A stretch of DNA of 64,000 bases from Pseudo-nitzschia pungens (taxonomy: Eukaryota > Bacillariophyta > Bacillariophyceae > Bacillariales > Bacillariaceae). Under the pieces are notes generated by a model. It was not told where the DNA came from, made no database searches, and worked only from the letters and a program-made list of their open reading frames with translations. Below, piece by piece: positions 17,950 to 57,488 of this stretch (positions within the stretch are counted from its first letter, which is position 1; the number at the start of each line of letters is the position of its first letter). A program made the translations under genes and the position numbers. The DNA lies in contig CM074764.1 in NCBI GenBank assembly GCA_037355855.1, positions 2,108,001 to 2,172,000 of the forward strand, given 5' to 3'.

Positions 17950-17973
17950 CGTCCGAAAACTGGTTCGCGACCC
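17950..17973 (+). repeat. TIR, A end of the giant element
   Basis: This begins CGTCCGAAAACTGGTTCGCG and continues into ACCC. It is followed by the A-specific CCTCCCAAGAATTTATTTGG segment, then by the copia insertion inside the inverted GGTCGCGA motif. Confidence 0.9.
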
Positions 17974-18002
17974 CTCCCAAGAATTTATTTGGGGGGCTCG
18001 CG

Positions 18003-18257
18003 TGTTGAATTCAGTAGGGGTTCTACGAAAACCTTAAAGAGATCAAATAAACTCTGTTGGTTAGATACAAGAAATTAAACTATGGGTATGTTGGCTGATT
18101 GATTGGTGAGTGGTAACTTGGCTATCCGATATCAGTTTTACCACCACATAATATTTATGTGGTCGGGAATCGGTCTGTCATGCATCGCCCAGCTCTTCAC
18201 CCTCTCATACCATGTATGTGTATGACCTCATCCTTTGGAATAAGGCATATCCCAACA
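18003..18257 (-). repeat. 3' LTR of copia element
   Basis: 255 bp, TG...CA. The TSD TCGCG lies just outside at 17998-18002. Confidence 0.95.
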
Positions 18258-18314
18258 CACTCCTGCTACTCGTTGGTGTGTTTTCTAAACACATCCCCGA
18301 ATAGATAATATTTG

Positions 18315-18926
18315 TTATGCCTTTCTTTCCTCATATTGTCTCTTATAGGCTACGAATTCATTCTCGCTAACACCCATAATGGTGTTCCGGAATTTGCGGA
18401 AAAGAGATCCTTGGAGGGGCTTCGTGAAATAGTCTGCCAGCATGTCCCCAGTCGGGCAATACTGTATGGATATCTCTCCATTCTTCACTCGGTCTGTGAT
18501 GAGGAAGTACCGAATGTTAATGTGTCTAATGCGCTTGGTGCTGGATGACTTGCCATTCATCTCCAATTTCATTGCGCTTGTGTTGTCTTGATTTAGGATG
18601 TTGTCTTTACCAAGGTAGTTGGTGACAGTCTTGTCGTCTCCACGATCGACTTGTGCGGCGTACCCCTGCCATTCTAAATAGTAGTGACACCACAAGTTGT
18701 AGGGCAGCGTGTCATCCACCCCCACCAGCTCGGCCTCTGTCGAGCTCTTCGTGTTCAGTTTCTGCTTTGTTGATACTGCCAGCACTGCCCCTTGTCCGAA
18801 CGTCAGGACACCACCAGTATGGCTCTTCATGTCTGTGTGTACTGCAAATGATGCATCCACATACCAGTACGCGTTGCCGGTGTTGTCCCACCCCAGGACC
18901 AGGGGCAGGAAGATGGTTTCCTTCAC
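18315..18926 (-). pseudogene. Copia RNase H and C-terminus
   Basis: This 203-codon frame shows RNase H landmarks: YVDASFAVHTDMKSHTGG, the STEAELVGVDD segment and QDNTSAMKLEMNG, then the copia C-terminal RHINIRYFLITDRV and MLADYFTKPLQG. It is one frame off from the RT segment. The shift lies near 18976, where FLCTRV is followed in the other frame by PDEDDWKKLKRVLGYV. Confidence 0.9.
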
Positions 18927-19081
18927 ATAACCCAGAACACGCTTGAGTTTCTTCCAGTCATCTTCGTCTGGGTCGGCACACGAGTGCAGAGGAAGGCAAT
19001 AGCTGTCTGTATATCTGGTCGTGCTCGCTTGCTTGCAAACAGCAGTTGTGCCACATGTTTATGGAACGTGTCAGCGTCTCG

Positions 19082-19414
19082 TCATTGCAGTTTTATTCCA
19101 TCTGGATTGGCCTTGAATAGATGGTCTGAGGCTGGCGTTGGGATCACTCTCTGTTCTTTAAGCTCCTTCGGCAGCTCACTGATGATTCCTTCTAGGTAGT
19201 CGAACATGCTGAACTTTACCTTTTCCGGGTCACTATAGTCAATCGTCATCCCCACATAGTCGTGTATTCGGCCACGCGTCACTGTCAGAGGCGCCTCGAT
19301 ACCGAACACGCTGTTCAAATCGTCCAGTATCTTGCTGACAACTTTCGGGTCCTTGTGAGAGATCTTTAGATCATCGACATGCCAGACAATTGTACACTGG
19401 TGTCCATCGATCAT
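19082..19414 (-). pseudogene. Copia RT palm segment
   Basis: This contains the RT active site VWHVDDLKISHKD and a following thumb region. It is separated from the upstream RT by a TGA at 19481 and from the downstream part by a TGA at 19082. Both keep the same frame, so single-base nonsense changes explain the breaks. Confidence 0.9.
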
Positions 19415-19480
19415 CTTGTTTGCTGTGCACGAGTCATATGGGTTGAGTTCAAAACCCCACTGAGTGAGTTGTCCAGATAA

Positions 19481-21250
19481 TCACTCCCAAAACAGTAGCG
19501 CGGCTCTGAGTGTCCCATATATAGCTTTGTCCGCCTGAGTGTACAGGACCTTGTGCCCTTTTCGGTCGAGCATGTATTTCCGGTACGTGGTTGGATCGAT
19601 CCTGGCGAGCAGCTCTGCCATTGGGCCATCAAACCGAATGTGGACAATCTCCCCTTCTGGCATTGGTGTTTGCAGGAAGGCCCCGGGTATATCAGCCGTG
19701 GCAACGTCACGTCCTTCAATTGCGTCGATGAGGCAGGTGAGCATGAGCCCATGCAGGGAGATGGTCGGTGAGTAGGTATCCTCCCGGGAAATGAAATCGC
19801 GTTGTGTGCGGCCATCAGCGCAGCCCCTTGCCTTGATTTTTCCACAGCGCTTCCGCTTTAGGAACATGAGGTAAGGAAGCGCCCGTTTGATCTCGTCGCG
19901 AGTGAGGTCCTTGATATCCACTGGATGTACCACTTGTCGTTCGTGTAACTGCTTCAGCTCGGTGAGGACTGCTTCGACCCCTGCTGTTCCGAATAGCTTC
20001 AAACCGGCCTTGATGCCGTACTGCTTGGTAACCAGAGATGCGTCGATGTTGTTATAAGATGCAATGGCGTTCGAGATGAATACATACTGGGCGTGAACCC
20101 TTTCCAAGCGTTTCATGGCTCGCTTGAATCCCCCCGAGAAAATATCGGAGTGCACCGTTGTGTGTGCTCTGTGATGTACGTTGGATTCGAATCCATCTGC
20201 TGTCCCAAACTTGTTGTGTCCTCTAGTCACCCTTGGTCTTAGTCTCATTGTCGAACGCTCCTCCGTGCTGCTTGTGATACTGTGGTGGTCGGTATCTCCG
20301 CTTGTATCTTCAAGTGATTCTGTATCGCCGTTCACGCTTGGTGTGTTCTCGTCCACCGCGTCCGTTTCGTCGTCGCCGGTCGGCATGTTGTCAGTCATGT
20401 CACATGCATTGGGACTCGCCACGCTGTCATTGTTGCATACTGAGCGAACGGGACTGCGCCCGCCGGTTGCGTCTGCCGCTCCAACGGACGAAGTTTCGTG
20501 GTTAGACGCATCGTCCCCTTGATCGTAACTCGCATTATCCGCATAACTTTCCCCATCACTCACTTCGTTGGGGACACTAGCGATACTAACATCACCATGG
20601 TGCTGCTCGTCTCGATCGTGGTCTGATGTGCTCTCGGTGTCGCTCCCAGGCGGGTCCTCCCTATGGTTGTTGGCCATGTCCAGGCGTATGTCGGTAAGTT
20701 CGGCGTCATCGATGGATCCGCTAATGTCGGTGTCCACAGTGGAATCGTCCTCTGGCTGGAAGGAATGGTCTGATGCGCCGTCGTCAGACCCGACTGACTC
20801 CGTTTCTAGGTCTAGGATGGTAGTGTCACCGTTCTTGTTGCCGAACACCACCCCTATTGGTGCGTTCTGCTCGCGTGCAATTTGGTCAACCCTCGCCACA
20901 ATGATGTCAGTCATGTGTGCTGCTGTCGCTGTCTGCCGCCGGATTCGGCGCCCTGTTTTGAGATCAAATAGGTACATAGCCCCACCGCGGTCACCAGTTG
21001 GTCGGAGGTATATGGCGTCACGAGCATGTGGCTCCATGGTGTTGTTGCTTGAGTCCTCGTGCCCCAGCACATAGTCGCCAAATTGAAATTTGCAGTGCTT
21101 CCCGGCGTCCAGGCGCACGCCGGTCATTAGCTGTCTGGGTGATATAGTCGATGACACCCCAACAGAATTGCACCAGTTATTTAACCAGAATATTGCGGCA
21201 GCGACCATATCAATGGTCATTCGGCGAGGAAGTCGCCGAAATGGCACCAA
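19481..21250 (-). pseudogene. Copia integrase C-terminus, linker and RT N-terminal half
   Basis: This is a 589-codon frame. It opens with the integrase C-terminal region (AAIFWLNNWCNSVG), followed by a long acidic Asp/Ser-rich linker (~residues 120-330), then RT: FLKRKRCGKIKARGCADGR, DTYSPTISLHGLMLTCLIDA and the catalytic-Asp strand VATADIPGAFLQTPMPEGE. It continues in frame after TGA 19481. Confidence 0.9.
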
Positions 21251-21283
21251 TGCGAATAGGCATCTGATCCGCTCTTTGCAGGT

Positions 21284-21922
21284 TCAGTTGTCGCGCTCAA
21301 CGTATGGTTCATGTTGGTTCCTAGCTACCCCTTCGAATCGAATGTGTGGGGTCCTCGCTAAAAGCCCCTTGGCTAAACAGTTGAATTCGTTGTCCCCGGA
21401 GATACATGTAACCACGAATCCCCGCCCCGAGTACAGTCCGACTATTGCATTCAGTGTGCGCTCAATGGTGGATTGGGATGCGTCTTCGATTGCTGAAACA
21501 GTCCGGAAATATAGGTGTCGCGATACACTTTGGAAGAACTTGATTCCATTTACAGTGAAGATATTGATGCTGATGGTCACGTTGCGGTACCGGTGAAGGA
21601 TGGCAAATGGCACTGGATCAATGTCTTCACGAACATGTGCCGGCTGTCGCCGTACTGATTTGCCTTTTATGATGTTGGTGTTTGACCCGAATATGTCGTC
21701 TGCGATCAGGATGTCGCGTCGGGTAACCGGGCAGTTCAGGAGGATGTTGTTATTGATGAGTTTGAGGAACTCTTTCTTGCTCGGAAAGCCAAGGGTATCT
21801 TGGCGCTTCCGGGCCTTTGTGGCGCGTCGGACATCCAGATCTGAGTATAATTCCTTCTGCCCTTCCACGGAGGTGATTGCTAACACTGTGCCGTGTGTTG
21901 TTCTTAGGTCACAGTAGTACAA
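21284..21922 (-). pseudogene. Copia pre-integrase and integrase core, one catalytic Asp replaced
   Basis: This shows the GAG-pre-integrase stretch (LNCPVTRRDILIADDIFGSN) and the integrase core. The first DDE Asp appears as Asn in ISINIFTVNG, where the family has D before I-x-x-VNG. The second Asp is present (ISGDNEF) and the Glu is present (EPYVER). The D-to-N change is GAT to AAT after a C, another CpG transition by inference. The segment ends at TGA 21284. Confidence 0.85.
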
Positions 21923-21959
21923 TCCGCTGTCGGCTCTGCGGAATTGGTGGGTGCTCCCG

Positions 21960-23744
21960 TCATGCTTGTGGACGAAAAAACGACTGCGTAATGCTTGTGT
22001 CCAGGGTTATCCGATACATGTTGGATACCAGGCTCAGGGATAAGATATTTGCCATTCCTCCTTCCTGGTACCACACTGTTCCGAATCCAGGAAGCTCCCC
22101 AATTTTGTCAACGAGTACAACGCCTGCGTTGCAGTGTATCCGTATCTTCTTGCCATCAGGGTGCACTTGGATGTTCTTGAGGAGTTTAGGGTTGCTCACA
22201 CAATTGCATGTTGCTTGGCTGTCCAGCAGGAGCCAGTATGGGTCAATAAGCCCGGAGGCATATTGGGAGAACATGTGTTCTGTTTGGAGGTGGTCCCCGC
22301 CGCTTTCTCCACTCCTGGGATTTGCACTCCTGTAATTTGTGGAGATGTCTCCACTCCTGGGGTTTCCGGTGGTTTCTTCCATCCGTGCCACACTCCTGGA
22401 GTTTTCAGACTCCACGCCGGAAAAGGTTTGTACGAAACAGAGCTCCTCCTCGGTATCCGAGTCGTCATCCAGGACTGCCATGAGAACTTGGGCTGCATCA
22501 GAGATGTTACACTCCCTGTTGGGCTCGGGCTCTTCATTCTCATCGTCTGAGCTGTAATCTGCTTCGGTGGTACTGGTGGTTTCGACTCCGTTGGTCACGA
22601 GAGCTGCGCCATCCGACGTTTCATCGTTCTTCTTGTTATTTCGACCAGTATTGGCGCTGTTACCTTGGGCGCCAGATGGTCGAGTTGATTTGTATTGATT
22701 TAACAGTTCCAACGCCTTCGGCTGTGATGTTGGGTACACGTCATTTCCGAGACTGTAGTTGTCTTTGAGTACCCCAGAGAGGTTCCGGTGCAACTTGTTG
22801 TTGCTTCCATTTACAATAACAACTGAGAGCAGCATCTCTTCCATGACTCGGTGCACGTTGGATTGTTCATCTGCACTCATTGTTGTATAGTCTTCATAAG
22901 TCTTCCCTTGGAACGAGTTTTCTAGGGCTAGCTTGATCATGGCTTTTGACTGGATGCAGATACCGGCCGAGGTGAGTACATCAAGGCGTGCCTTGGTTTC
23001 TTCAGCGTATGTTGCTGCATCTTTGGTTCCATCCTGTCGGCAGGAGAAAAACTTGTATATTTTGTTTATGGTGTCGACCATTGGGTGCACCTTGGTTGCA
23101 CTGTCCCGGTAACAGTATTCTCTGAGTATGACAAGCAGTTTCAGGGTGTCTTGGTTGAGTTCCGCGTCTTCCCATTGCTCATTTGTTTTGAGTTGTTGTC
23201 TTACCCCAGGGCTCAGCTGTCCCTCGATGGTCGAGAACAAACTTGATAGGTCCTCACAGTAGTCTTCGAACTTCTTTGCTGATCGTTCTCCTTTCTTTAT
23301 CCACAGCTCTTCTAGGAGCCGCTTCTTGTCTTGATCGACCAGGGTTGTTCCATCAGTGCCTGTGGTGCTGTATTGTTCGGGCTTCGGCATGGCTGGTTGG
23401 AAATCCTCCTCGGTTAGTTTCTTCATGTTGATGAGTGTCGTCTTAACCTTTGGATTGTTCTTTCCGGCCACAATCTTCAGTCCCTCAAATAACTTATCGT
23501 ATTGTCCTGATTTAGATCCATCGATCACAGTTCCTTTCAGCTCGTCTTGGTCAAGGCCTGTGAACTTGCGGTCAGGCTTGCGATCAGTTCCTTTACGATC
23601 AGTTGATCCGGTTCCTGTGGTGTTGTTGCTGTTGCCGGGCCGATTCCGATTCCGAGACCTGCTGCCACTTGATTGGTTGTTGGTGGAGAGCGTGCCCGTT
23701 GTGTCGGGGCTCTTTGGTGTGTTTGGTGTATTGAGTTGGTCCAT
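21960..23744 (-). CDS. Copia Gag and aspartic protease
   Basis: The 594-codon frame starts MDQLNTPNTPKSPDTTG, and a Gag domain of diatom copia type follows. The protease motif is WLLLDSQATCNCVSN near residue 500. The frame hands over to the integrase frame in a run of six T (minus strand) at 21975-21980, where the other frame reads FFVHKHDGSTHQF. A slippage mutation and a programmed frameshift are both possible there. No CCHC knuckle was recognised. Confidence 0.88.
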   Translation of the reverse strand: MDQLNTPNTPKSPDTTGTLSTNNQSSGSRSRNRNRPGNSNNTTGTGSTDRKGTDRKPDRKFTGLDQDELKGTVIDGSKSGQYDKLFEGLKIVAGKNNPKVKTTLINMKKLTEEDFQPAMPKPEQYSTTGTDGTTLVDQDKKRLLEELWIKKGERSAKKFEDYCEDLSSLFSTIEGQLSPGVRQQLKTNEQWEDAELNQDTLKLLVILREYCYRDSATKVHPMVDTINKIYKFFSCRQDGTKDAATYAEETKARLDVLTSAGICIQSKAMIKLALENSFQGKTYEDYTTMSADEQSNVHRVMEEMLLSVVIVNGSNNKLHRNLSGVLKDNYSLGNDVYPTSQPKALELLNQYKSTRPSGAQGNSANTGRNNKKNDETSDGAALVTNGVETTSTTEADYSSDDENEEPEPNRECNISDAAQVLMAVLDDDSDTEEELCFVQTFSGVESENSRSVARMEETTGNPRSGDISTNYRSANPRSGESGGDHLQTEHMFSQYASGLIDPYWLLLDSQATCNCVSNPKLLKNIQVHPDGKKIRIHCNAGVVLVDKIGELPGFGTVWYQEGGMANILSLSLVSNMYRITLDTSITQSFFRPQA

Positions 23745-23880
23745 GCTGGAGGATTGAAATCGACTGCTACAGCGCCTTTCTATTTGCTCGGAGGATGTGT
23801 ATCTACTCGAGGTGCTGATGAGGAAACACTATGGTGGTTTCGTTTCGGTTTTCCGAACACCGGTAGTTAAATTTCTTGTA

Positions 23881-24135
23881 TGTTGAATTCAGTAGGGGTT
23901 CTACGAAAACCTTAAAGAGATCAAATAAACTCTGTTGGTTAGATACAAGAAATTAAACTATGGGTATGTTGGCTGATTGATTGGTGAGTGGTAACTTGGC
24001 TATCCGATATCAGTTTTACCACCACATAATATTTATGTGGTCGGGAATCGGTCTGTCATGCATCGCCCAGCTCTTCACCCTCTCATACCATGTACGTGTA
24101 TGACCTCATCCTTTGGAATAAGGCATATCCCAACA
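23881..24135 (-). repeat. 5' LTR of copia element
   Basis: 255 bp. The only difference I see from 18003-18257 is CATGTACGTG versus CATGTATGTG. The TSD TCGCG follows at 24136-24140. Confidence 0.95.
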
Positions 24136-24662
24136 TCGCGATTTATTCCTGGCTCATTTTGACGTAGCTCGATTCCTACCGTAGCTCTCTCCCGATTCGC
24201 AACCCCAATCGCGACCCAGTTACTACCTCAATTCCAAGAAAAAGAGAAAAAATTCAAACAAGACCCAATTTTTTTTTAAGACTCAAATATTTTCTTCAGT
24301 CACTTAATCAAATTATTCAACATTTTCAAAAAAATATTTGTTGTCTCAAAATAATCCCCCCCTTCCCCCAATTTTTTTTCAATCTGACTCATTATTACCG
24401 ACCCTACCATCATTATATATTATGAGACTGTTGCAGAAATTCACTCCCAAAAATTGATTTCTCATCCCGACACAAAGTATTTCCCATCGCACCCCTCAAG
24501 AAATTCATCACAATAATCACAATTATTACCCGAAGCCCAGGAATCGCGACCCCCATGAAAAAAAATTTCGAAACACTACGATGCAAAATATAAGTCTTTC
24601 TTTTGATAAATATTGATACTACTCTAATAATTGTTAATTCTCTGTTCAATTTTCTCACACAC
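24136..24662. other. A-end subterminal region of the giant element
   Basis: This AT-rich non-coding DNA matches the A-end regions of the smaller members, for example 27360-27560 (CTCAATTCCAAGAAAAAGAG, TTAAGACTCAAATATTTTC) and the reverse complement at 44900-45120. A further TCGCGACC lies near 24206. No ORF. Confidence 0.8.
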
Positions 24663-24870
24663 TCACACACAATGATCGTCGTTGCTCTTCGTTCCGATCG
24701 CCCTCGTCGTCCTCCCTGAATTCGTCGTTGCTTCTTGCTTCGATTGTCTTCGTTGTCGCCCTTGAAGTCGTCGTTGCTCTTCGCTTCGATTGTCTTCGTC
24801 GTCGTCCTTGAAGTCGTCGTTGCTCTTCGCTTTGATCGTCTTCCTCACACACTCACACACAAATTTTGGT
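24663..24870. repeat. ~45-bp minisatellite (reverse orientation copy)
   Basis: Degenerate tandem copies of a CGTCGTTGCTCTTCGCTTCG / GATTGTCTTCGTCG unit occur here. The same unit in the opposite orientation flanks the Cys-rich gene (50220-50990 and 53150-53820) and occurs at 44480-44590 in a small family member. CACACACTCACACACA borders it on both sides. Confidence 0.85.
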
Positions 24871-24885
24871 TCGATCGAACGATTT

Positions 24886-25652
24886 TTAAAGACTGGCCAA
24901 CGCGATATCGTTACTGCCAGTAAAGTCCTCCTCATCTTCATTTACATCTAGCAAAGCTTGTAGCTCCGGACTAATGTATTCAGTAACTTCTTCCTCCTGC
25001 ACCCAGTCCTCATCGAACGCACTGTTGTTGTTGTCATTGTTTACACTCTCGCGACGGAGCCTCTCTCTCAATCTTTCCTCACACTCTCTACCTGTTCTCG
25101 GATCTTTCCTCAGCACCACAATCTCCCTGCACAAGTTATTGAACAGTGCTAGACCTTCCTTTGACCACGATTGCAGCTCTCCACTGTATTGGTCACAAAA
25201 TTTCTTTTTCTTCCTCCTTCTCACAATCCTGCCACCGCCGTTCCCTTTTTTGCTCAACATGATTCACCCAAACATCATACTCATTATGAATCATCATCAA
25301 TGCAAATGCTTCATCGGTTTCTGTGAATATTTCACTCATCAAACATGTCGTCTTTTTGTGTTTGTAGTCCCTCTCTATTGGAGAGATGCTTGATAGAATC
25401 CGAGTCACAAAGTAATAAAAATCCTCATTTTCACTGTTGTTGTCATACCTTCTGTACTCTGGGTTAAGTCCCAGCTTCTTTCTACTACTAGTTCCACTAC
25501 TACTAGTACCCTCCCGCATCACAATCTCCACTTTACCCGGGAACGAATCGGGCACAATGCCTTCGCGATTGAGTGTGTCCTCTAGTAGGATTACACAGCA
25601 GTAAAAAGTGTTAGAGTAGCAGGGGATATACCATTAATCACCACCAAGCAGT
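24886..25652 (-). pseudogene. Broken transposon-borne ORF, unknown function
   Basis: Two overlapping minus frames join through a run of six T (plus strand 25246-25251): an upstream part with NPEYRRYDNNSENEDFYYFV and TETDEAFALMMIHNEYD, and a downstream part with RRRKKKKFCDQYSGELQSWS and a charged tail ending DIALASL. The frame is open upstream into LLEDTLNREGIVPDSFPG and WYIPCYSN, so the original N-terminus is lost or lies before the duplicated segment. I do not recognise the family. It looks like the C-terminal ~250 residues of a larger protein encoded by the giant transposon. Confidence 0.5.
25412..25652. repeat. Direct duplication, copy 1 (241 bp)
   Basis: This starts GTAATAAAAATCCTCATTTT and ends at CACCACCAAGCAGT. 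It is nearly the same as 25733-25970, with a few substitutions and a 3-bp indel near 25590. Copy 1 is continuous with the broken ORF. Confidence 0.95.
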
Positions 25653-25732
25653 TTTGCCACCAAGAACCCTGAATTTCATAGAAAGTACGGAATGGGAAGG
25701 GGAGGTCGTGGTCCAGAAACATTTGTGTTCTG
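25652..25732 (+). pseudogene. 81-bp captured fragment of the Cys-rich gene
   Basis: These 81 bp match 52538-52618 at over 90% by eye. The reading includes FATKNPEF and KYGMGRGGRG. The fragment lies exactly between the two copies of the direct duplication and is in the same strand as its source gene. Confidence 0.9.
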
Positions 25733-25970
25733 GTAATAAAAATCCTCATTTTCACTGTTGTTGTCATACCTTCTGTACTCTGGGTTAAGTCCCAGCTTCT
25801 TTCTACTACTAGTTCCACTACTACTAGTACGCTCCCGCATCACAATCTCCACTTTACCCGGAAAGGAATCGGGCACAATGCCTTCGCGATCGAGTGTGTC
25901 CTCTAGTAGTACACAGCAGTAGAAAGTGTTAGAGTAGCAGGGGATATACCATCAATCACCACCAAGCAGT
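25733..25970. repeat. Direct duplication, copy 2 (238 bp)
   Basis: Second copy of 25412-25652. On the minus strand it reads ATTGATGG where copy 1 reads ATTAATGG. Confidence 0.95.
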
Positions 25971-26039
25971 AATAGTAACCAATTTATTAACCCCAACAAT
26001 TGTGTATCCGTGCATTTTTAACACTCTAAGACAAGAAAA

Positions 26040-26750
26040 TATTGGTCAGTATGAGCCCCGTTCAGGAAAAAAGCATATTTTGGGGTGGATTTTGGTCAAC
26101 TGAGGATTTTTTTTACAAAGCAAGTGTCACATCCAAAATATAAGTGGCGCCCAGTTTATTCCTTTTTTAGTATTCTAATAGATGGATATACTGACCATTA
26201 TTCGGTGTGGAATACAAAAAATCTAGTACAATCTGACCCATCCACAGGAAATATGCACATTCTGCTGTGGTGTAAATTCGGGTACAGAGAATTTTTCTGA
26301 GAAATCAGAACTTACATCCAAAATATAACATGTAGTCAGTTTTTTCCCTTTTTAGTATTCTAATAGATGCATATACTGACCATTATTCAGTGCCTAAAAT
26401 AAAAAATCTAGGACAATTTGACCCATCCACAGGAAATATGCACATTCTGTGGTGAAAATTCAGGTACTGAGAATGTTTCTGAGAAATCAGAACTTACATC
26501 CAGAATATAATTGGTAGCAAGTTTATTCCCTTTTTAGTATTCTAATAGATGCATATACTGACCATTATTCAGTGCCTAAAATAAAAAATCTAGGACAATT
26601 TGACCCATCCACAGGGAATATGCACATTCTGTGGTGAAAATTCGGGTACTGAGAATGTTTCTGAGAAATCAGAACTTACATCCAGAATATAATTGGTAGC
26701 AAGTTTATTCCTTTTTAGTATTCTAACAGATGCATATACTGACCATTATT
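26040..26750. repeat. ~182-bp satellite, about four units
   Basis: The marker ATCCAAAATATAA / ATCCAGAATATAA recurs at 26131, 26316, 26498 and 26680 (spacings 185, 182, 182). Units are AT-rich with TTTTTAGTATTCTAATAGAT and ACCCATCCACAGG. The sequence is unrelated by eye to the 181-bp satellite of the small members, but the period is nearly the same. Confidence 0.9.
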
Positions 26751-26754
26751 TAGA

Positions 26755-26830
26755 CCATTCAAAAAGAAGTATTCAAAAATCACCAATAATTCAGGATTTA
26801 CTAGATAAAATTACCAAATCACATTATACT
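26755..26830. repeat. Single fragment of the 181-bp satellite
   Basis: CAAAAAGAAGTATTCAAAAA TCACCAATAATT (split here only for length) and TTTACTAG...ACCAAATCACAT match one monomer of the satellites at 28985-31010. This links the giant member to the small members. Confidence 0.85.
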
Positions 26831-27305
26831 ATGTTTTATAATATTCCATTACACGCCCGGCGTCTTACTTTTCTTGGGTGTACCAAATTTCGCGGAAGCG
26901 GAATCCTACTTTTGTTGTGCCCCTGCTGGCGGCTTTTTCCCTGGCTTCGGTGGTCCTGGTGGAGGATGCTTCTTCATATGAGGTGGAAGGTTGGACGTTT
27001 AGTTTTGCATCCTCTTCCCTTTTTTTCCTTTTCTTCTTTTTCTCTCTGTCTTGTTCAGTCTCCTGTTCCATGTTTTGAACACTATTACCGAGGCTTGCTA
27101 ATTTCTTCTTCTCATCCTCCCTTCTTTTATGGTTGACTGTCTCGTGGGCGATTTCGAAACAATTTTTTTTTTCTTCACAGACCGGATCTTTCCCTTTCTT
27201 CTTGAAGCGCTCACACTGCTGCCTGCCCATCACAGCATTCACCGAGCGTCGGAACAATCCTTTTTCTTCCGTCGTCATACCCTTAGTCGCCTCCTGAACG
27301 ATCTT

Positions 27306-27329
27306 TGTCCGAAAACTGGTTCGCGACCC
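27306..27329 (+). repeat. TIR, A end of member 1
   Basis: 24 bp, with C-to-T at the first base (a CpG position). Followed by a TCGCGACC (27321-27328) ... GGTCGCGA (27352-27359) inverted pair. Confidence 0.92.
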
Positions 27330-27844
27330 CTCCCAAGAATTTATTTGGGGGGGTCGCGATTTATTCCTGGCTCATTTCGACGTAGCTCCATTTGTAGCCC
27401 TCTCGCGATTCGCAACCCCAATCGCGACCGCATAACTACCTCAATTCCAAGAAAAAGAGAAAAAATTCAAACAAGACCCAATTTTTTTTTAAGACTCAAA
27501 TATTTTCTTCAGTCACTTAATCAAATTAATCAACCCCATTCTAATTTTCTCGTGCTTTTTTCAAAAAAATTAATTCTTTTTTTTGAACACAACACAAATT
27601 ATTTCCGGCACACCCCTCAAGAAATTCCAGCATACATTCAAAAAATTCTTCACAAAAATTATGGACTACTCCAGAAATCGCGACCCCTCTCCTCACACGA
27701 ATTGCGACCCTCACCTAAGAAATTCTGTATTACTGTGATGCAAAACCAGTCAATCTTTCAAAAAAATTTTAGAATTTATAGTAACAATTTTATTCTCAAT
27801 TCATTTTTTCTTGTTCCCACCACCACACAAATTTACTTCCTATA
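27330..27844. other. A-end subterminal region of member 1
   Basis: AT-rich with long A and T runs and scattered TCGCGACC-like words (27352, 27428, 27678). The open frame in it is compositional. Matches 24136-24640 and the reverse complements of 44640-45160 and 62640-62747. Confidence 0.8.
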
Positions 27845-28250
27845 TCATATTTGAGTTGTGATCCCATCATATTTCAGTTGCGATCGGATCATATTTCAGT
27901 TCCAATCCCATCATATTTCCTCAGTTGCGATCGCATCATATTTGAGTTGCGATCGCATCATCATATTTCCTCAGTTGCGATCGCATCATATTTGAGTTGC
28001 GATTGCATTATATGTCAGTTGCGATCGCATCATCATATTTCCTCAGTTGCGATCGCATCATATTTCAGTTGGGATCGCATCATATTGTTTGAGTTGCGAT
28101 CGCATCATATTTGAGTTGCGATCACATCGCATCATATTTCATCAGTTGCAATCGCATCATTTTGTCAGTTGCGATCCCATCATTTTTGAGTTGCGATATG
28201 TGTCAGTTGCCCCGTCGCATCATTTTTCAGTTGCCCCGTCGCATTAAAGT
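27845..28250. repeat. GCGATCGCATCATATTTCAGTT array
   Basis: About 15 degenerate ~22-30-bp units are built on the palindrome GCGATCGC followed by ATCATATTTSAGTT. Reverse-complement arrays are at 44260-44390, 44600-44640 and 62270-62640. Confidence 0.9.
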
Positions 28251-28900
28251 TGATTCTTCCCTATCAGTACCAAGCAGGCAACTCAATGCAGAATTAGAAT
28301 AATTGAAATCCATCATCAATACCCCAGATCTTGATGTGCTTCACTCACCGTTGCATTATATTTCATTTGCTGTTGCATCCTATTTCATCAGCAGTTGCGG
28401 TCGCCTCCCTATCAGGAGCAAGCAGGCAAGTCAATGATGCACAGTTAGACGAATCCAAATCCATGATTAATACCTCCTCCAACCTTGATGTGGTTCACTT
28501 ACCATTTCCATCTCATCATATTTCAGTTGCCGTCTTTCTTGTTCCGTTCCAACCCAAAATTATGTGAAGTAAGATTTACGACACATGCATTTTCTGTCAT
28601 GCATGTGTTTGCCGAGAATTGATTTCTTCTACATGATAGCAGTAGAGTTACTACTAGTAGTATGTACCGTACTGAAGTAATAGTAGAAACCAGTAGAAAG
28701 CTGATGATGGTGATATCGTGCGCCACCTAAACCACAGAGAGCCTGCCCCGCTGCGCCATAATTTTGGACTACCTCTTATGTACTACTACCTACGCACTGC
28801 AGTAGTATGTAGCAGCAGTGTATAACTGTACTACTACTACAAGCAGCAAGAATAGTACTACCTCAGTGAATATACCATCAAATCAAATATCTGAATGAAT
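28251..28900. other. Unique-looking spacer in member 1
   Basis: Two related ~170-bp segments (around 28265-28380 and 28395-28540) share CAAGCAGGCAA and CTTGATGTGSTTCACT, suggesting an old duplication. The palindromic ATGCATTTTCTGTCATGCAT word (28583-28602) and TAGTAGTA runs follow. No gene. Confidence 0.6.
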
Positions 28901-44640: not shown

Positions 44641-45182
44641 GTTTGTGTGGTGGTGGGAACGAGAAAAAAACGAATTGAGAATAAAATTGTTACTATAAAT
44701 TCTAAAATTTTTTTGAAAGATTGACTGGTTTTGCATCACAGTAATTCAAAATTTCTTATGGGAGGGTTGCAATTCGTGTGAGGAGAGGGGTCGCGATTTC
44801 TGGAGTAGTCCATAATTTTTGTGAAGAATTTTTTGAATGTATGCTGGAATTTCTTGAGGGGTGTGCCGGAAATAATTTGTGTCGTGTTCAAAAAAAAGAA
44901 TTAATTTTTTTGAAAAAAGCACGAGAAAATTAGAATGGGGTTGATTAATTTGATTAAGTGACTGAAGAAAATATTTGAGTCTTAAAAAAAAAATTGGGTC
45001 TTGTTTGAATTTTTTGTTTGAATTTTTTCTCTTTTTCTCGTAATTGAGGTAGTTATGCGGTCGCGATTGGGGTTGCGAATAGGGAGAGGGCTACGAATGG
45101 AGCTACGTCAAAATGAGCCAGGAATAAATCGCGACCCCCCCAAATAAATTCTTGGGAGGGGTCGCGAACCAGTTTTCGGACG
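44641..45182. repeat. A end of member 2
   Basis: AT-rich A-end sequence with the GGTCGCGA/TCGCGACC inverted pair (45128-45167) and TIR 45159-45182. Confidence 0.9.
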
Positions 45183-47833
45183 CAGAGCTTCTTGCTTGCG
45201 TCATCCAGTTCAAAGCAGTAGTATTGCATGGACAAGTCGATCTTGGTAAAGTGGGTATACTTGCCACGCTTGTTCATGATATCTTGTATCCTTGGTATGG
45301 GATAAGGTCTTCTTTCAAGGAGTTCGTTGAGTTCCCTGAAGTCTGATACCCATCGTACCCTGTTATCTTTCTTTGGTACTATGAAGGTTGGAAATGCCCA
45401 TTCAGCTGGTCCAGAGCATCTTTTGAGTACTCCATCATCACAAAGATTTTGGAGCTCCCTTTTGAATAGGTCTTCTCGTTTGTATGCTACTGGATAAGGC
45501 TTTTTGTGTATGGGCTTGGATCCGGGCTTCAGTCTTAGAGAGATTTTCTTGTGAGGGTACTTGCCAAGTTCACCATTAAAGACATTCGGATACTTGCTTA
45601 GTATTGCCTGGAATTGTTGCTGCTCTGCTTTGGACATGTGGGACTGTTGTTGTGCGACTGTAGTTGGATCTGTTTCTTGGTAGGCTCTGTCGAGAATAAC
45701 CTTGGACTTGTATGGATTGGCAAAGGAGAGATCATCAGCAAAGAGTTCGGCGTCTTCTAGTTCTTCCATGAGCAAGGTGTAGTCGGACTCATGGTATAGG
45801 GACGTGTCCTTCATAGGAATGGTTCTATCCATCCACTGAATTGCTCCTTGTTTGAATAGGAGGTTGATCTGTGCTAGGTGGAGGAAGTCCCTGCCTAGTA
45901 TCAGATCGTATTTGCAGTTCGGGGAATGGAAGAGCCTTGCCTCGTGTAGGTCGATGGTATAGTTGCCAAACTCTTGTAGCTTGAGGTTCTTCATGATGAT
46001 ATATTCTGTAGTGTCAAAGCTTCCATTTGCTGTCGTGGTTAGTACTTGATGCTTGCTTCTTATTGGCATGGTGCCAAATGGTAGGGCTCGTTTGTTGATT
46101 AGCGTTCCGGAGGATCCACTATCGAGTAGTGCGAGTAGTGGTCTTGATTTTGTAGGGATGCCTTGTATGTACTGTACGTTGGTTAGAAGAATAGGAGCCA
46201 CGTTGCTCTTATTCGGAATAGGAGCCACGTTGCTCTTATTCGATGCCTGTTCTGCTGTATTTCCAGCAGGCGACAGCAGCTTTAAATAATTTTGCTCCAG
46301 CGCACCTCCTTTGGTGGATTCTTTGGAGTTTTGGGTATTGCAATAGAGATTTTTTGCTGTACCGGTAGACCAATTTCTTGCTAGGGGCAAGGTTGGTCCA
46401 TTTATTGCTGCTGGCTTATTCGGATCGATATTAATCGATGATGCGTCTGTACCCTTGGATCGATTTGGTTGTTTTCGATTCGTATCCATGTTCGTATTGC
46501 TCTTTGCGGAGAATCGAACTGTTTTTGTTGTTGTTGCTGCGATTGCAGGCTTTGCTAAGCTTTCAACAGGACTCCATCCTGTAGGTTCCTTCCCCTCTTT
46601 ATCTGGGAGATCTCCTCCATGCGTCATCCCAGACAGCAGGGCTGTACTGGCATCCAGTTCCTGGGGAGCTGGAGGCAAGGTGATTGCTGGTTTTGGTGAA
46701 GCCCGGGGCTTCTTTGAACGGGGGCCTTTGGAGATTCAGGGAAGCCACACAAGCTCCCCATCGATGCTCCGTTCGGTTCGTCCACCATGGTTGGCATGGT
46801 ATTCTTCGATTGCCGCGTCGCGCGCTGCATTCATGTGGGCCTGGAAGGTTTCATTGCTTCCTGGTATCATGAGAGCATGAGTGTGAGTGTGGAAGGACTC
46901 AGTTTGTTGATTGTTTCCAGGCCCCTTGTTGTAGTTCTTGGAAAACCGGTTCTTCGGGCATTCAGACCAATCATGATTATGGCCTGGGATCCGACAAGGG
47001 TTGGATTTCTTTTTGGCGTTGTTTCCCTTGTGGTTGTTCGAGTTGCGTTTGCGCGAGTTGTTATTGCTGTTGGAATTGTTCGAGCGCTTTTGGTGTTGTT
47101 TGTTGTTGTTCTTGTTGCTCTTCTTGTTGGCTTGGCGCTCGTGACAGCTCATATGATCCACTATGTGTTGTACTGTGGTGTCTTCTTGAATTCCACTGTG
47201 GATGATTCCATAGCTTTCGATCCATGCAGATGGGAAGGAGTGTAGAAGAATAGTAAGTTTTTCCACTCTGGATAGAGGCGCGCTGCTACCATCCAGTTTC
47301 TGGGTGTATTTCATGAGGATGAGGATCCTGTCGGCATGGTCCTTGCATGTGACTGATGGGGTCTTTCTACACTCGGAGCTGCGAAGATACGTATGCATGA
47401 TGTCTCTAGCGTCCCTGGCGTTGCAGTAGAGCTTGGTGAAGTCAAGGAACGCTTGATCGTATCCTCCAATCTCTTCTTGTGAGTATTGGTATTCCTCTGG
47501 GTCCAATGGATCCTTTATCATGTCATTCCACTTGCTCTGTGCATCAGTGGTGAGGCATCGACTGAAGTGGGTGAGGTAAATGTCTATAGGAAGTCTCAGG
47601 AGCTTGGCGGCGTTTCAGAAGGACTCTTCCACAAAGAGTAGCTCTTCTAGTCCTCCGGTCTCTGTAAACAGGGGGACTTTCATGCTGTCCGTCCGATCCT
47701 CGTCGACGTTGTACAGAGTGAAAAGTTTAGGCTTGGTTCGGTCGAAAGAGCTCTTGTAGGCGATGGGGGGATCTCTGTAGATACCTGCCATGGTTGCGTC
47801 GATCGGTTGCGTCGATCGGTTTGTTGGAGACAA
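45183..47833 (-). pseudogene. Gypsy 2 Gag, protease and RT fingers
   Basis: One minus-strand frame runs from the start region (likely MAGIYRDPPIAY near 47791) to the nested transposon, interrupted only by TGA at 47615 and 46736. Gag includes a basic Asn/Lys linker with the knuckle-like CRIPGHNHDWSEC. Protease has LLALLDSGSSGTL. RT fingers show VSDFRELNELLERRPYPIPR and the first catalytic Asp in TKIDLSMQYY. Reading through both TGA codons keeps homology on each side, so they are point mutations. Confidence 0.92.
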
Positions 47834-47923
47834 AAGGTGCCTCTGTTATTGAGGCTGTTAGTGTTTTTGAATTCAGTACTGAGTTCTACTGTTTCTACTG
47901 TAAAGCACAAACAGTAATTACTG

Positions 47924-48246
47924 TGTTACGGTCTAGAGTAGAAATTTCGGAGTAGTATGTAAATTGTGAATGTTTAGATACTTTACGAGATATTGTTAAG
48001 CGAATTGAGAATGGAAACATATAAAATTTCGAGGTCGCGAGCATAGCCACACTTTGGCATGCTCTGCCATAAATGTTGATTCATTGTCGGTTCCCACGAT
48101 TAGGCATATATCCTAATCTGGGACTCGACCATAATAGTTCGAACACATATCGAAATGTATTCATGACTGAATATATAATATTCGATTCCCATATGGGATT
48201 CGGTTAATTATTCAATCGTGACTGCTAGCTACGCTAGCCCGTCACA
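47924..48246 (-). repeat. 5' LTR of gypsy element 2
   Basis: 323 bp. GTAATTAC (47914-47921) lies 2 nt inside it, as in gypsy element 1. TSD TGTAC at 48247-48251. Confidence 0.95.
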
Positions 48247-48251
48247 TGTAC

Positions 48252-50992: not shown

Positions 50993-53126
50993 ATGACACG
51001 ATCCACATCTTCCAAGAAGAACAAAAAAATTGGGACTGACATTGTTGAAAACAAGCAGATCAGGCAGGAGAGGTTCAGGAGAAAGGACGAGCAGAAGAGC
51101 AAGGACAATACGTGCTGGTGCAATTTGGGTTGCATAGCGACGTTGACGCAGGCAAGTACAAGGGGGAAGAAGGGCACTAGAAACTGTCGACGCACCTCTG
51201 ATGGAATTGTTTGCACAAGGTGTAACAAATTTTCATGCAGGAAATGCCTTAGGTCTATTTTTAGACTCATAGAAAAAAAGACTAGTGATAGCATCGATCT
51301 GCCAGATGAAATCCATCAGATGAAAAATGCATTGATTAACAACCAGAGTCAGGTTTCAGTCTGTCACGGCTGCATTTTTGATAAGCAAAAGCAGGAGGTT
51401 ATGAGGTCCCACCGTTATTTCATCGAAGTCGAAAGCAGACAAGTGCAGCTTAGGTATGATGGTTACATCGTTTTACCAGAGTACAATGTGATGATCGACA
51501 CTCCCCTTATCTCGGAAAATGTAATCGATTGCCATGGATTTGGGAAGGAGCCAAACCTTGCTGGAGTGAAACATTTTGTTGTGGGGTACAATCTTGCTAG
51601 AGAAGCTGCAGCAATGGATGTTACACCCTACAAACTTACCAGTTCCGACGCGGTGCAAAGAAAGGTAAACGTGATCGATGTCGAGTGTCCCGACATTGCC
51701 AATCCGAATAAAAAGAGAACATACCGGGTGCAACTGATTGTGGTGCACGGTACTCCATGTACAAAAGCCATTGCCAATAATACGGGGTATACAGTGCAAT
51801 CTCTCAGAGACTCCAGGGTGTTTTCGGTTCAGGATCGTGGGGAAGAATGTGATGTTACCATCATCGTTGGCAATTTTTCTCAATCACCTGAATTGGGACA
51901 CAAACAAAACCTGCTACTGGCTCGGTTCTATCATGGAAGTGATGCCCTTCAAATGAACCAAAAGCATGTTGGATCCTTGTTTCAGGAACTGCAGAAAATG
52001 ACAAAGAATAACCACATAGAAAGGAGTCGCACCGGGGGTAGCAGCGGAGTCTACAAAGGACCAACTCGAGCCCTCTTCCAGATGCTTGAAAACCTGAGTG
52101 TTACACCTAGGAAGGGAAATGCAACCTTCGTTGTTCCAGACGGGCACAAAATACGTGTGTTTTACATCAACAGAAGAGGACGTCCAATTCATTGGGCATA
52201 TTCCAACCCTCAGTATGGAGGACAGATCGGGCCGATCTCCAAGGATTTGTTTTCGCGATACAAATTCTTTCGGCCGTTCACAGAGTCGAAGATAGTCAGT
52301 GCATTACTTCTGAGAGAGCTGAGCAACATTGTTGTTGAAGGGGTGGAAGGGGTGCTGAATGTGGTGCCTCTTGCTGTTGCGCGAGAGTTGAGAAACCACA
52401 AGAAAGCCATGACCCGTGCCGGTTCGAATGACATTGGTGAAATTTTGTATCAGTTTTGTTCCCTTAATTCAACAACGCTTGTGCAAATTTGGTAGAGATG
52501 AAGAAGGTACCGTTTTCAGTCTGGAAAATAAGATTGGTTTTGCCACCAAGAATCCTGAATTTTATGGAAAGTACGGAATGGGAAGGGGAGGTCGTGGTGC
52601 ACAAACATTTGTGTTCTGCTTGCTTGATTGGGGCAAGCACAGAAGAGCAAGACGTGCGGCCGAAGTTAATTTGCAGGCAGCGCAAGTAGAGCTCACGCAA
52701 AGACAGGCTGAGTGGCAAGCAGCGTTGGACCGTTGGATAGAAATCGATGAGAATCAAAATGCCACTCAGGATGAGAGGCATGAGGCAGAGGCGGAAGAAA
52801 TGGCAACCCAAGCAGCTCGTGATGAAGCCGTGGCAGCCAGAGACGCTGCCCAAGTTGCCTTCGATGATGCAGTTGCTGCTCTTACACAGGCTGAAGCCGC
52901 AGAGAATGCCGATGCCGGTTCGGGCTCAGATTCTGATGCGGAGGCAGGTTCGGGTTCAGATTCTGATGAGGAATGGGTTGTGAATGCGTGTTTGGACTCA
53001 GATTCTGATGATGATTTGTCTGACCAGGATTTCTATGAGCAGGATGCTGACGATGATTTGGTAAAGGATTTGCGTGCGGGATGGGATTCGGATTGGGAGT
53101 CAGATTCGGGATGGGGATTTCGATGA
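50993..53126 (+). CDS. Cys-rich protein of the giant transposon, unknown function (one frame break)
   Basis: ATG at 50993 opens a 500-codon frame. Residues 41-85 and 124-127 form a Cys cluster (CWCNLGC, C65, CTRC, CRKC, CHGC) that looks like a RING/PHD-type zinc domain. The middle region (~135-490) has no motif I recognise. The frame stops at 52495, but the overlapping frame (from about 52420) carries on with a plausible continuation: KIGFATKNPEFYGKYGMGRG, an Ala/Glu-rich coiled coil (residues ~570-660) and a Ser/Asp acidic tail ending at 53126. Either a 1-nt shift near 52440-52490 or a short intron joins them, giving ~710 residues. An 81-bp piece of this gene is duplicated at 25652. It lies convergent to the transposase-like gene and is flanked by the same minisatellite on both sides. 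Confidence 0.65.
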
Positions 53127-53820: not shown

Positions 53821-53876
53821 AGCAAATGATACAAAGATTTTTTATTAGTTTAGTTACCTGCCTAGTGTAGAATGGT

Positions 53877-56800
53877 TCATTCAGCAATGCCGGTGTTGTC
53901 TGATTCCTCTCGTTGTACAGGACAAGCGGAGTAGAGGCTCTCGTAGGTAGTATATGTCATAGAATTATTCCTCTTTTCAAAGAATTCGAGCCATTGCAAT
54001 CGATTGTGAACAACCAACCACCGACCATTGTTTACTGGTTCCGCATTCTCGTCCAGTTCAGGAACAACTGCCAGTTCCGAAAGAATAGTGTCAGTGTTAA
54101 ATAAATATAAAGTATTGTCGAGATAGCCACTTTTTACAAAGCGAGATGATGTAGACCTTGGATCCTCTTCAAACTTTCTGACAACCGCGTAGATGCCATC
54201 TGAATCAACATCGTATCCATTCACAGCCGATGTGGGTTGTTTCAAATCTTTCACATGCAGAAAACACAGCATTTGACAGGGGATTTCAGTGTTGTCATCG
54301 ACTGCAAACATTGCCCAGTCAAACCATACACTGTTCACTTGGCCTGAATCAGACCTGTATGAGGGGTGACATCGGAACAGGTAGTTGACGCGATTCACAG
54401 AATCCCATCTGTTGTGTTTGGTGAACCCAAATATGCTGGATGTGTCATTCAGCAAAGGAAGGACAGAGTTGCAAACAAAATCTAGTACAATTGATGAATG
54501 AAATGGTTTGTTGTAGTTCCGTTCTCTGATCCATCGCATCGAACTTTTGGTTCCATCCTGAAAAATGGTGAAACGGGCACCATACTGGGATGGCCTGCGG
54601 GATATGACTTTAGGATCACCACCCACTTTCTTCAACTTGTAATGAGAGGTTGCGAGTCGAAGGAGAGATGCTTCTTCTTTCCGACGGGTTGTCTGATGGA
54701 CTAAGGTTGCGGCATTTTGTTGAGTATTTTTGGACGGTGCTTTTATTTCTGTCTTGTGGTGACTTTCACTGTATGCAGAATCGAAACCTAATGTTGGACC
54801 CCACAGACTGATGTACTTCGGAATGTGAAAGTAGAGGTGATTTTTGATCAGTTTTGTTCCCATTCCCTTCCGAAGGCAGGTGCCATTGATAGAGTTGAGG
54901 AAATGAATGATGGTTTTGGGAAGATTTTTGATGGACTTTGTGGTTGGACGGCCGTGTTTGAGAAATTCTTCCATAGAGATGATTTGTTCGATGACATCAA
55001 TGTGCTTCTTCACAAATGAGGTGTCCCTCAAAACGTCAACGCCGGATTCAGAAACCAATGTTAGAAGAATCAAAATCAGCATACCACTGTAATTGTGCCC
55101 CTCTTTTTTGGTGACAGACAGAAGATTGGAGCTGAATTTAGTTCTGGGAAAGTCACGATCCGACTGCCTTGAGAGAAGGGCTCCATATTTTTGAGAGACA
55201 TGCCCGATTGTATTTACTGTGGAAACACCGGTCATTAGATGATCTGCATACGGGCATGGTATTGAACCCTTCATCAGTTGCTCCAGGGATTCTACCTCTC
55301 GTTTGGCACACCCCAGCTGGTGCATGTGGAGGCATTCACCAGGGGAGGCTAAGTGGATGTTGTTTACATTGGTACCAAAGTTGAGACTGTGGAATGCATT
55401 TCTGATTTGGTGGTGAGAAATATTGTTGAAATATTCCTTGGTGGTAGTGTCATCTGAGTCTAGAAATGTATGAAAATCTGATGGGACCCAAAGAGAGGCT
55501 GTTTGTTGTGCTGATGGAATATTTATGTCCTTGGTGGAACAGTTACAGTGTCGGCAAAGCTTTTGTACACCACCCGACCGGGATCCATATTTGCCACATA
55601 ATTTATCATGCAGTTCTGTGTCACCGATGACATAGGCTATTGCAAATTTCATTTTGACTTGCCACAATTGGCCGGCGTAAGGGAGAAAATCCCATTGGAT
55701 GCCTTCATGGGTGGACTCACATGCTTCTTTGAAAGATCGGAGAGCCACTTCTAGGGCATTATGGAGGTTTTGGATTGATTCTTTCGAGGATGGTTTTCTT
55801 GAATGGTGGATGCTCTCCAAATCTGAGTCGGGATGAAAATAGATTGTTGTCCATGCTTCCGGCCTTTTCCTTGTTTTGATGTTGAATATGCCTAGGGTCA
55901 TGTTCAGTGGAGTCAGTGATAGTCTTCCGTGCGCATCCAAGCTAATTCCATCCATGTAAAAAATGATGGGAACAAGGATTTCAGAATTTTCTTCTATGCA
56001 GAGGGATCTCCAGGAATCCGACCACCATGATCCATGGTGCAACTCAGGTGATGGGACAGGAATCAGTTCGAACCGGGAAATGCTCTGGTGACAAGGGGGT
56101 ATTGCTGTTGGGGAATGACAAATTTTCTTCCAACATTAAATCTGGGTTCAACAGAAGGGAATACAAAGCATCCAGAAAAGGACGGACATATATTTGAGCA
56201 GGTTTGTTGTCGGGAAGCCAATTCACAATTTTGGGCTCAAATTTTGGTTCCGACGCTATGCCAAGATTTTTTTTAATTTCTTGAAAAATGGCGTCACGTT
56301 TTCTTGTTGGTGTAACCTTGAAATCGAAACCGGGAAGATTGTTGCTGTCTTTCGCCCAATTGAAAATGGTTTGATAAGTGGAAAGAGGTAGCTTGTGCTG
56401 TGATATAATGTTGAGGAGGTTGATTTCGGCAATAAGTTCCGGACAGGGTGGGAACAGAGTGCGATTCCGGAATGTTTCCTCTCTTTCGTTTATGGAAATG
56501 GTGGTGCTTTTCATGATTTTGGAATCAGATATTTCGGTGTCAGAACTGGCATCAAAATGGTCCGAGGCATCAACATCAGAATCGATAGCATTCATTTGTT
56601 CCTCGTTTTCAGCCATATGCGATTCGATTGCCTGTCTGTCCATGGGTGGGATGAGTACATTGGCGATTACTTGAGGATTGAGTGAGGTATGGATAGAAGT
56701 TGTTGCGGCGGTGTCATTTGGGGCAAGGGAGGGGGGGATTTGTGGTCCATTCTGTGTCATTGTCAGTCCATACTGTGATGGTGTGTGTCAGACCAAAGGG

Positions 56801-57072
56801 AGGGTGACTTCTTCTTTCGCAGAAGAAATAAAATCCATAAGTTTGTTCACATGATAATAAGTTTGGCAATCATTGTTGGACTTCAAGTGAAATGAAAGTC
56901 CTCTACAGACATATCCGTAGGTGTGAAAGTGACTCGATTCTTGTTTGTATCCCTTGAAGGATTGCTGTGATTTTCTTTTTCTTGCAGAGGCAATGCAGTT
57001 GTGACAAAAAAATGTCTTGGGTATTCTGGGCTCATTGGCAAAGTGCCTTGGGTCGGAGGAAGCTTTCGGCAT
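53877..57072 (-). pseudogene. Zinc-finger transposase-like protein (CACTA/Plavaka-like), two breaks
   Basis: Minus strand from ATG 57072. Residues 1-95 (MPKASSDPRHF, CHNCIASAR, GLSFHLKSNNDC) form a C2HC-type finger. TGA at 56788 is an Arg (CGA) codon in the copy at 63139. About 240 residues of acidic linker and helical region follow (56760-56044), then a 1-nt frame change near 56043, then a 721-residue core. In the core: IIFYMDGISLDAHGR (candidate catalytic Asp), GDTELHDKLCGKYGSR, KLCRHCNC, and ECLHMHQLGCAKREVESL. These features recall CACTA/Plavaka-type transposases, with an Asp strand, a Cys pair and an H-x-x-x-G segment. Intact length ~1060 residues. It sits next to the B end, as expected for the element's own transposase. 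The family call rests on pattern recognition only. Confidence 0.7.
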
Positions 57073-57189
57073 GGTGAAAATAAAATAAATTGAAATAATT
57101 GTTTGTTGTGATGCGAAGGGAGGATTCTTAGCTGGGGTACCGGTATGTTAGGTGACACCACTGAAAAAAAAGTTTTACAATGGTGCGCG

Positions 57190-57488
57190 ATGTAACTGTT
57201 GTGTGATTGAAGATGATCTGATTAAAAATTATTTGTTATATTGAGTCAAATGTGTCAAATGTGTAGAATGGAATGAAAAGGGGACGAGGGACTGAATATC
57301 AGGGTCTAGATCAGAACATTTTCCAGAAACCGATGCGGGGATGGAGAAAAAAAAGAAATAAGGTTGAGAATAATGGAAAAAAGGTTGTGAAATAAAAAAT
57401 TGGGGTCGTGTTTTTTTTAGACAAGTCGCGATCGGGTCGCGATCCGGTCGCGATTGGTCGCGATGGGTCGCGAACCAGTTTTCGGACG
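57190..57488. repeat. B end of the giant element
   Basis: GGTCGCGA motifs at 57435, 57446, 57456 and 57466, with AGTCGCGA at 57424, spaced 10-11 bp, then TIR 57465-57488. The whole 300 bp matches the other B ends closely. The transposase start codon is ~400 bp inside the end, so this region probably also carries its promoter. Confidence 0.92.

Follow-up and report, generated by a model that had tools for sequence, protein, structure and literature searches.

A nested locus in a diatom-like genome as a probable decayed member of a family of giant transposons with Plavaka-type transposases

Plavaka transposons are described in fungi as two groups, PlavakaA and PlavakaB. The passages that define them place C(2)C and H(3-4)H motifs between the second D and the last E of the transposase and give target site duplications (TSDs) of 2 or 3 bp, those of PlavakaA being of 2 bp; an additional gene (TET/JBP) is present in some fungal PlavakaB (PMC12730594). 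Giant multi-gene elements are described in algae. The EnSpm/CACTA elements of Chondrus crispus reach 16-20 kb with 4-5 open reading frames (ORFs), as summarized in a passage of PMC6431247 citing Kojima et al. 2013, and passages on Ectocarpus report giant KDZ, EnSpm and Sola-1 elements above 10 kb, with accessory genes mostly of unknown function and nested insertions (PMC12477816). Here we analyze a locus bounded by an A end at 17950 and a B end at 57488 in a window of 64,000 nucleotides (the whole stretch studied, C7:2108001-2172000 of the 66.9 Mb assembly that was searched). It very probably represents a decayed member of a family of giant cut-and-paste transposons whose transposase is of Plavaka type (CMCT clade), resident in a diatom-like genome.

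The two ends match, as the original prediction had proposed from the letters of the window. A 22-bp repeat, GTCCGAAAACTGGTTCGCGACC, is found exactly at 17951-17972 (+ strand) and 57466-57487 (- strand). Of 16 repeat pairs examined, 15 have a C just before the left repeat and all 16 a G just after the right one; with this flanking C/G the terminal inverted repeat (TIR) was taken as 23 bp, so that the A end covers 17950..17972 (+), the B end 57466..57488 (-), and the element finishes at 17950 and 57488. TCGCGA repeats lie subterminally by the B end (57426-57473). Subtraction of three nested insertions with their TSDs (a copia-type element, a small relative called member 1, and gypsy 2) leaves 14,900 bp, close to the 15 kb predicted. 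This remainder holds four gene remnants and is colinear with two uninterrupted copies of the element found elsewhere, except for about 1.1 kb missing that includes exon 1 of the accessory gene gA. Its identity to an intact copy varies between 71 and 98% per 300-bp stretch.

The first fragment of the large element (17950..18002, +) is cut by the copia-type insertion and the second (24136..27306, +) has piecewise 86-93% identity to the uninterrupted copy C1:5372473. The remnant of gA exon 2 is found at 24889..25633 (-), with tblastn identity of 86-89% to exon 2 of the intact copy and a frame disrupted near 25250. Within this remnant, at 25412-25970, a 241-bp duplication (96%) flanks an 82-bp piece matching g723 sequence at 52537-52618 (94%), a piece that resembles repair filler DNA. 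Gene g760, a 760-amino-acid open frame in the intact copy, persists as a main part at 33694..35780 (-; tblastn 62-78%) and a carboxyl-terminal part at 27048..27302 (-; 76% to residues 631-713) set apart by member 1. The g723 remnant (50993..53048, +) matches at 85% and 74% with a frame shift near 52,430-52,490. The Plavaka-like transposase remnant (53880..57171, -) is 96% identical over residues 377-1101 and 87% over residues 2-379 of an 1101-codon frame, with a frame shift near 56,050. The window copy was predicted to be autonomous; with its transposase and g723 frame-shifted, gA exon 1 missing and g760 split, it is not.

The two uninterrupted copies establish the element as a unit. They are located at C1:5372473-5387922 (15,450 bp, TSD TT/TT) and C2:8647239-8662941 (15,703 bp, TSD AA/AA), are 99.8% identical in both aligned stretches, and their similarity stops at the ends, with unrelated flanks beyond. 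Both keep all four genes open in the order, from A to B, gA(-), g760(-), g723(+) and transposase(-). These encode, respectively, ORFs of 296 and 251 codons, a 760-codon ORF, and proteins of 723 and 1069 amino acids counted from the first Met. A third copy, on C6, is 99-100% identical across the four genes, the matches covering only part of g723 and g760.

Genome-wide, 449 TIRs were counted with up to 2 mismatches (225 + 224) and none with the reversed-pattern control, which excludes chance. Pairing was analyzed for 100 of the 449 places, which yield 36 pairs of neighbouring, inward-facing TIRs no more than 30 kb apart. They span less than 3 kb (1 pair), 3-7.5 kb (27), 9.2 kb (1), 15.5-15.7 kb (2) and 20-28 kb (5), so that other pairs 12-18 kb apart, as the prediction had proposed to search for, do exist. 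For the genes, 43 scored transposase matches out of 249 first-look candidates were used together with 51 of 66 g723, 49 of 116 g760 and 60 of 141 gA matches. Counted by eye, 29 of the 43 are stop-free from residue 6 or before to residue 1066 or beyond. At 26 of the 43, the full gene set lies within 35 kb with order and orientation conserved; random placement of the transposase gave a mean of 0.35 and a maximum of 3 full sets in 500 shuffles.

These data bear on the idea that the four genes come from separate mobile elements stacked between unrelated A and B ends. Heavy nesting in the window and the unlike flanks of its two ends would agree with such an artefact, but in the uninterrupted copies the TIRs enclose all four genes and the 2-bp TSDs match, gene order and strand recur at the syntenic loci, and the window blocks are colinear with intact copies. 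Stacking is refuted for the family and bears only on the provenance of the window ends; we consider it very improbable.

Shorter elements have the same ends. Internal deletion derivatives retain element bases 1-3132 + 12390-15450 (C2:2740767) or 1-1024 + 15309-15450 (C4:5429074, 1187 bp). The relatives of about 6 kb that were read have the ends and some internal blocks in common with the large element, not the four-gene set. TCGCGA is present 3 times in the first 300 bp of the 15,450-bp copy, 4 times in the last 300 bp and 4 times elsewhere. The family appears to have been recently mobile.

The assignment of the transposase relies on its relatives, its residues and its predicted fold. Four of five relatives scanned, 38-45% identical to the transposase, exceed the cut-off of the Plavaka profile in Pfam (scores of 26.8-42.7), P0001 staying below with 24.5, and 17 of 20 transposase members match the profile at E <= 5. 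Residues D489, C511, C514, H750, H754 and E774, the catalytic ones being chosen by eye, are kept in 63-64 of 64 sequences and fit the pattern D-D-[C(2)C]-[H(3)H]-E. The structural model is confident (predicted template modelling score, pTM, 0.84) and its catalytic core fold matches RAG1, ProtoRAG and Transib; at the sequence level, no PDB entry matched the transposase profile at E <= 1. The transposase is a Plavaka relative of the CMCT clade with a predicted RAG1-type fold, and possibly with a BAH-like domain at the carboxyl terminus. Among 120 relatives listed, the names that bear an organism are Cylindrotheca fusiformis and Psemu1, a code that we take to be Pseudo-nitzschia multiseries; a fungal host, to which the Plavaka match had initially pointed, was discarded on these names. 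The prediction had considered the three extra genes to be of unknown family, and none of them has a Pfam match above cut-off; the transposase does belong to a family.

The likeness to fungal Plavaka elements lies in the transposase profile, through the relatives, and in the residue pattern; 2-bp TSDs are those given for PlavakaA in the passages of PMC12730594. The host differs, being diatom-like, as do the three extra genes, none of which has a TET/JBP Pfam match. The family combines a Plavaka-type transposase with termini outside both published types. The pattern described for EnSpm/CACTA in the same passages (CAC..GTG, 3-bp TSD; PMC12730594) differs from the termini and 2-bp TSDs found here. 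Compared by description only, the Chondrus crispus EnSpm elements are alike in size, gene number, algal host and related clade, and the Ectocarpus giants in size above 10 kb, accessory genes, nesting and stramenopile host; the latter are assigned to KDZ, EnSpm and Sola-1, and the passages of PMC12477816 on them make no mention of cargo exchange. As far as these passages describe them, the enlarged EnSpm elements of the red alga and the giant EnSpm, KDZ and Sola-1 elements of the brown alga set a direct precedent in both size and number of genes. The titles and abstract openings searched mention neither a diatom-like host of a Plavaka-type transposase with such termini, nor the two-gene chassis, nor exchangeable cargo.

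RAG1, ProtoRAG and Transib resemble the transposase in the core fold of the predicted model, with identity of only about 10%. RAG1 and Transib make TSDs of 5 bp, unlike the 2-bp TSDs of this family with its possible BAH-like carboxyl-terminal domain, and no RAG2-like partner was recognised by Pfam in the proteins of the element. A Polinton- or virus-derived origin could come to mind for a large multi-gene element bounded by TIRs. Polinton/Maverick elements have a polymerase B, an integrase and 6-bp TSDs; Pfam recognises neither a polymerase B nor an integrase nor a capsid among the four proteins, the transposase has no viral fold match at E <= 0.001, and the 2-bp TSDs also differ. The chance of such an origin is negligible.

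The TSDs, defined as the next 2 bp beyond the 23-bp TIR, match in 13 of the 16 TIR pairs examined, member 1 being counted despite a C->T change. A match is expected by chance in 0.065 per pair, giving a binomial P of 2e-13 that is optimistic since the C/G boundary was picked on the same data. In the window element the duplications differ, TA at the A end and AA at the B end. The B end sits within a gypsy copy, and all 10 gypsy copies compared, which lack the insertion, read ...CAATCCAA(G/A)CAA|GGAAACA across the site, which identifies AA as the duplication on the B side. The flank of the A end, ...GGCCATGCCTACTA, is not gypsy: it agrees with the 10 gypsy copies at only 24-26 of 60 ungapped positions, and besides itself its 1-kb extension matches the genome only in a self-match of 34 bases and in five short stretches of repeats (72-87%).

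Alternatively, there was a single clean insertion whose TSD mutated later, and the gypsy on the right continues, in diverged form, into the left flank. One base change would turn TA into AA. The two flanks are readable in one frame, and local alignment extends 16 bases beyond the junction in 3 of 10 gypsy copies. We nevertheless regard this as improbable given the poor agreement with all 10 copies and a 1-kb left flank devoid of any gypsy-wide match. Since the flanks are unrelated and the TSDs unlike, the A and B ends stem from different insertion events: the window copy is a dead hybrid. The pairing of the two ends assumed in the prediction thus holds in part only, for their common repeat and not for their original insertions. 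The most economical origin is recombination between two direct copies with deletion of the intervening DNA, leaving one colinear hybrid. As the reciprocal gypsy-TIR junction was not found, a one-sided deletion outward from one end fits equally well.

The accessory genes were examined for signs of function. The two ORFs of gA are read as a single gene whose exons flank a GTACGT..ACTAG intron. Elsewhere, two intronless gA relatives of 495-496 codons (L056 4754-6238, -; L057 4011-5498, +) lie beside tandem arrays whose 181-bp period recalls the small members, and may represent a further non-autonomous family. The ratio of non-synonymous to synonymous divergence (dN/dS) is 0.18-0.28 for the transposase and 0.13-0.29 for g723 between diverged lineages (synonymous divergence, dS, of about 0.37 and more), which places g723 under purifying selection between these lineages, less clearly so between close copies. 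By eye, g723 is stop-free in 26 of 28 near-full-length matches. Its structural model reaches a pTM of only 0.25. A reading of g723 as a hidden TET/JBP-like dioxygenase, from an HxD-like LHYD motif spotted by eye, was unsupported and dropped.

Cargo genes could also be debris of captured host genes (Pack-type capture) without function for the element. The repeat-rich interior, the lack of Pfam matches above cut-off and the persistence of the relatives of about 6 kb without cargo genes would fit. The low dN/dS and open frames of g723 speak against capture, as does the retention of long ORFs in two diverged forms of g760, and we hold it to be unlikely.

The genome contains a second transposase family (C4:5566200 and its relatives) that shares 55-57% identity with the first, and the comparison suggests how the gene set was composed. 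A gA relative is found 1.3-2.0 kb downstream of the transposase at 19 of 19 second-family loci; the C11 locus is only 69% like the remaining ones. The single locus read (L058) has no g760 or g723 match, and matches to g723 and g760 lie within 15 kb at 5 of 19. The constant pairing points to a two-gene ancestor, g760 and g723 having been inserted between gA and the transposase. At C3:5643086-5654731, C8:3375199-3387633 and C9:2650481-2665583, coordinates alone show g723, g760, a second-family transposase and a gA relative following one another at similar distances; this is either cargo beside another chassis or a nested composite that multiplied.

Divergence within the first family is discordant between genes. 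Between C1:5372473 and C1:6315k, dS is 0.087 for the transposase and 0.057-0.12 for gA, and reaches 1.65 for g723 and 1.27 for g760 (216 codons). Identity runs at about 87-97%, gives way to no alignment near base 3600 and is back to 91-97% near 11,400. Between C1:5372473 and C1:3117k, dS is 0.066 for g760 and 0.368 for g723. Over the 26 syntenic loci, identities of gA and transposase are correlated (Spearman 0.60, P 0.001), as are those of g760 and g723 (0.82), and the correlation of transposase with g723 is not significant (0.29, P 0.14). These discordances indicate that genes of one element differ in history, through cassette exchange or gene conversion of the chassis. From these comparisons the element looks modular, with ends, transposase and gA as a chassis and g760 and g723 as cargo of another history.

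Gene conversion of ends and transposase, making the chassis look young on cargo that kept its age, predicts the same low chassis dS and high cargo dS. At 7 syntenic loci, however, g723 is at 72-83% and g760 at 93-96% in 6 of the 7, and exchange or conversion must then act within the cargo too. Conversion in place of cassette exchange is a possible but doubtful explanation.

We privilege the following scheme. A RAG1-like DDE transposase would cut at the 23-bp TIRs and reinsert the unit, as suggested by fold, motifs, TSDs and near-identical copies at different sites, and would also move the relatives of about 6 kb with common ends. En/Spm is a two-gene system of TnpA and TnpD. The family likewise has a two-gene chassis including a non-transposase protein, and repeated motifs near both ends. 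By this analogy, and from its constant pairing with the transposase and TCGCGA at both ends, gA is probably a TnpA-like end-binding helper. The g760 and g723 cargo would sit within the chassis and be traded between resident copies through recombination. Copia, member 1 and gypsy 2 would then have struck the window copy, and its ends would have been joined by recombination of two copies, or outward deletion from one end, leaving unlike target duplications.

Several observations weigh against parts of this account. The transposase itself scores 25.0 bits with the Plavaka profile, under the cut-off of 26.3, and the second-family transposase scanned gave no Pfam match. The termini CGTCCG..CGGACG depart from the TGT..ACA (A) and CATCA..TGATG (B) given for Plavaka in the passages of PMC12730594. 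The full gene set within 35 kb is absent at 17 of the 43 transposase loci. TSDs are mismatched in 3 of the 16 pairs (C2:7931403, C1:3618778 and the window element), and the search for the reciprocal gypsy-TIR junction of the B-end insertion, with up to 3 mismatches, found none. Outside the genome gA and g723 have no relative at E <= 0.001 among the 7993 most-word-sharing candidates scored for each. The dN/dS of g760 is 0.33-0.55 and that of g723 rises to 0.6 between close copies. For the two exons of gA it is 0.52/0.93 (C1:6315k), 0.66/0.30 (C1:3117k) and 0.52/1.7 (C1:5965k); this weak constraint (0.30-0.93, once 1.7) sets gA apart from TnpA and weakens its proposed helper role.

The insertions nested in the window element belong to three kinds. 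The element that the prediction labelled copia (18003..24135, -; 6133 bp) has long ORFs on the - strand, a 5-bp TSD TCGCG, and long terminal repeats (LTRs) at 18003-18257 and 23881-24135 with 1 difference in 255. Member 1 (27307..33690, +; 6384 bp) is a relative of about 6.4 kb with its own TIR pair, a 181-bp tandem array, TSD TT and the outermost C changed to T. Gypsy 2 (36140..48247, -; 12,108 bp) has reverse transcriptase, RNase H and integrase domains, LTRs with 1 difference in 324, and member 2 nested inside it (38873..45181). The small number of differences between their LTRs indicates that the copia-type and gypsy 2 insertions are recent. Arrays of the 181-bp unit inside small members are found at 28879-31006, 42022-43606 and 60767-61627, about 88-97% alike. 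Around the element, a reversed relative of member 1 occupies 58415-62747 and is directly followed, at 62749, by another B end running past the end of the window (64000). A gypsy element at 2378-8172, whose 346-bp LTRs are identical and whose open frame of 1545 codons includes pol domains, is a very recent insertion. Left of the A end, a 393-codon open frame with asparagine-rich runs (16229-17410, +) is possibly a host gene.

An anti-silencing role for g760 and g723 is a guess. A broader and tentative view is that the family evolves in a phage-like manner, with a fixed chassis (ends, RAG1-like transposase with a BAH-like chromatin-reading tail, end-binding helper) and swapped cargo that includes an orphan cysteine-rich protein under purifying selection, possibly countering host silencing. 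According to passages in PMC12477816 and PMC6431247, ectopic recombination is thought to limit giant transposons. In this family, many 15-kb copies with open genes reside together in one genome, and at least one copy has ends that record a two-insertion rearrangement. Since internal gene exchange, or conversion, is measurable among such copies, the effect of recombination on giant transposons, harm versus modular innovation, becomes testable in one genome. Through the RAG1-like fold of the predicted model, Plavaka transposases would be tied structurally to the RAG/Transib lineage, and the possible BAH-like tail hints at a way in which elements of this kind could read chromatin.

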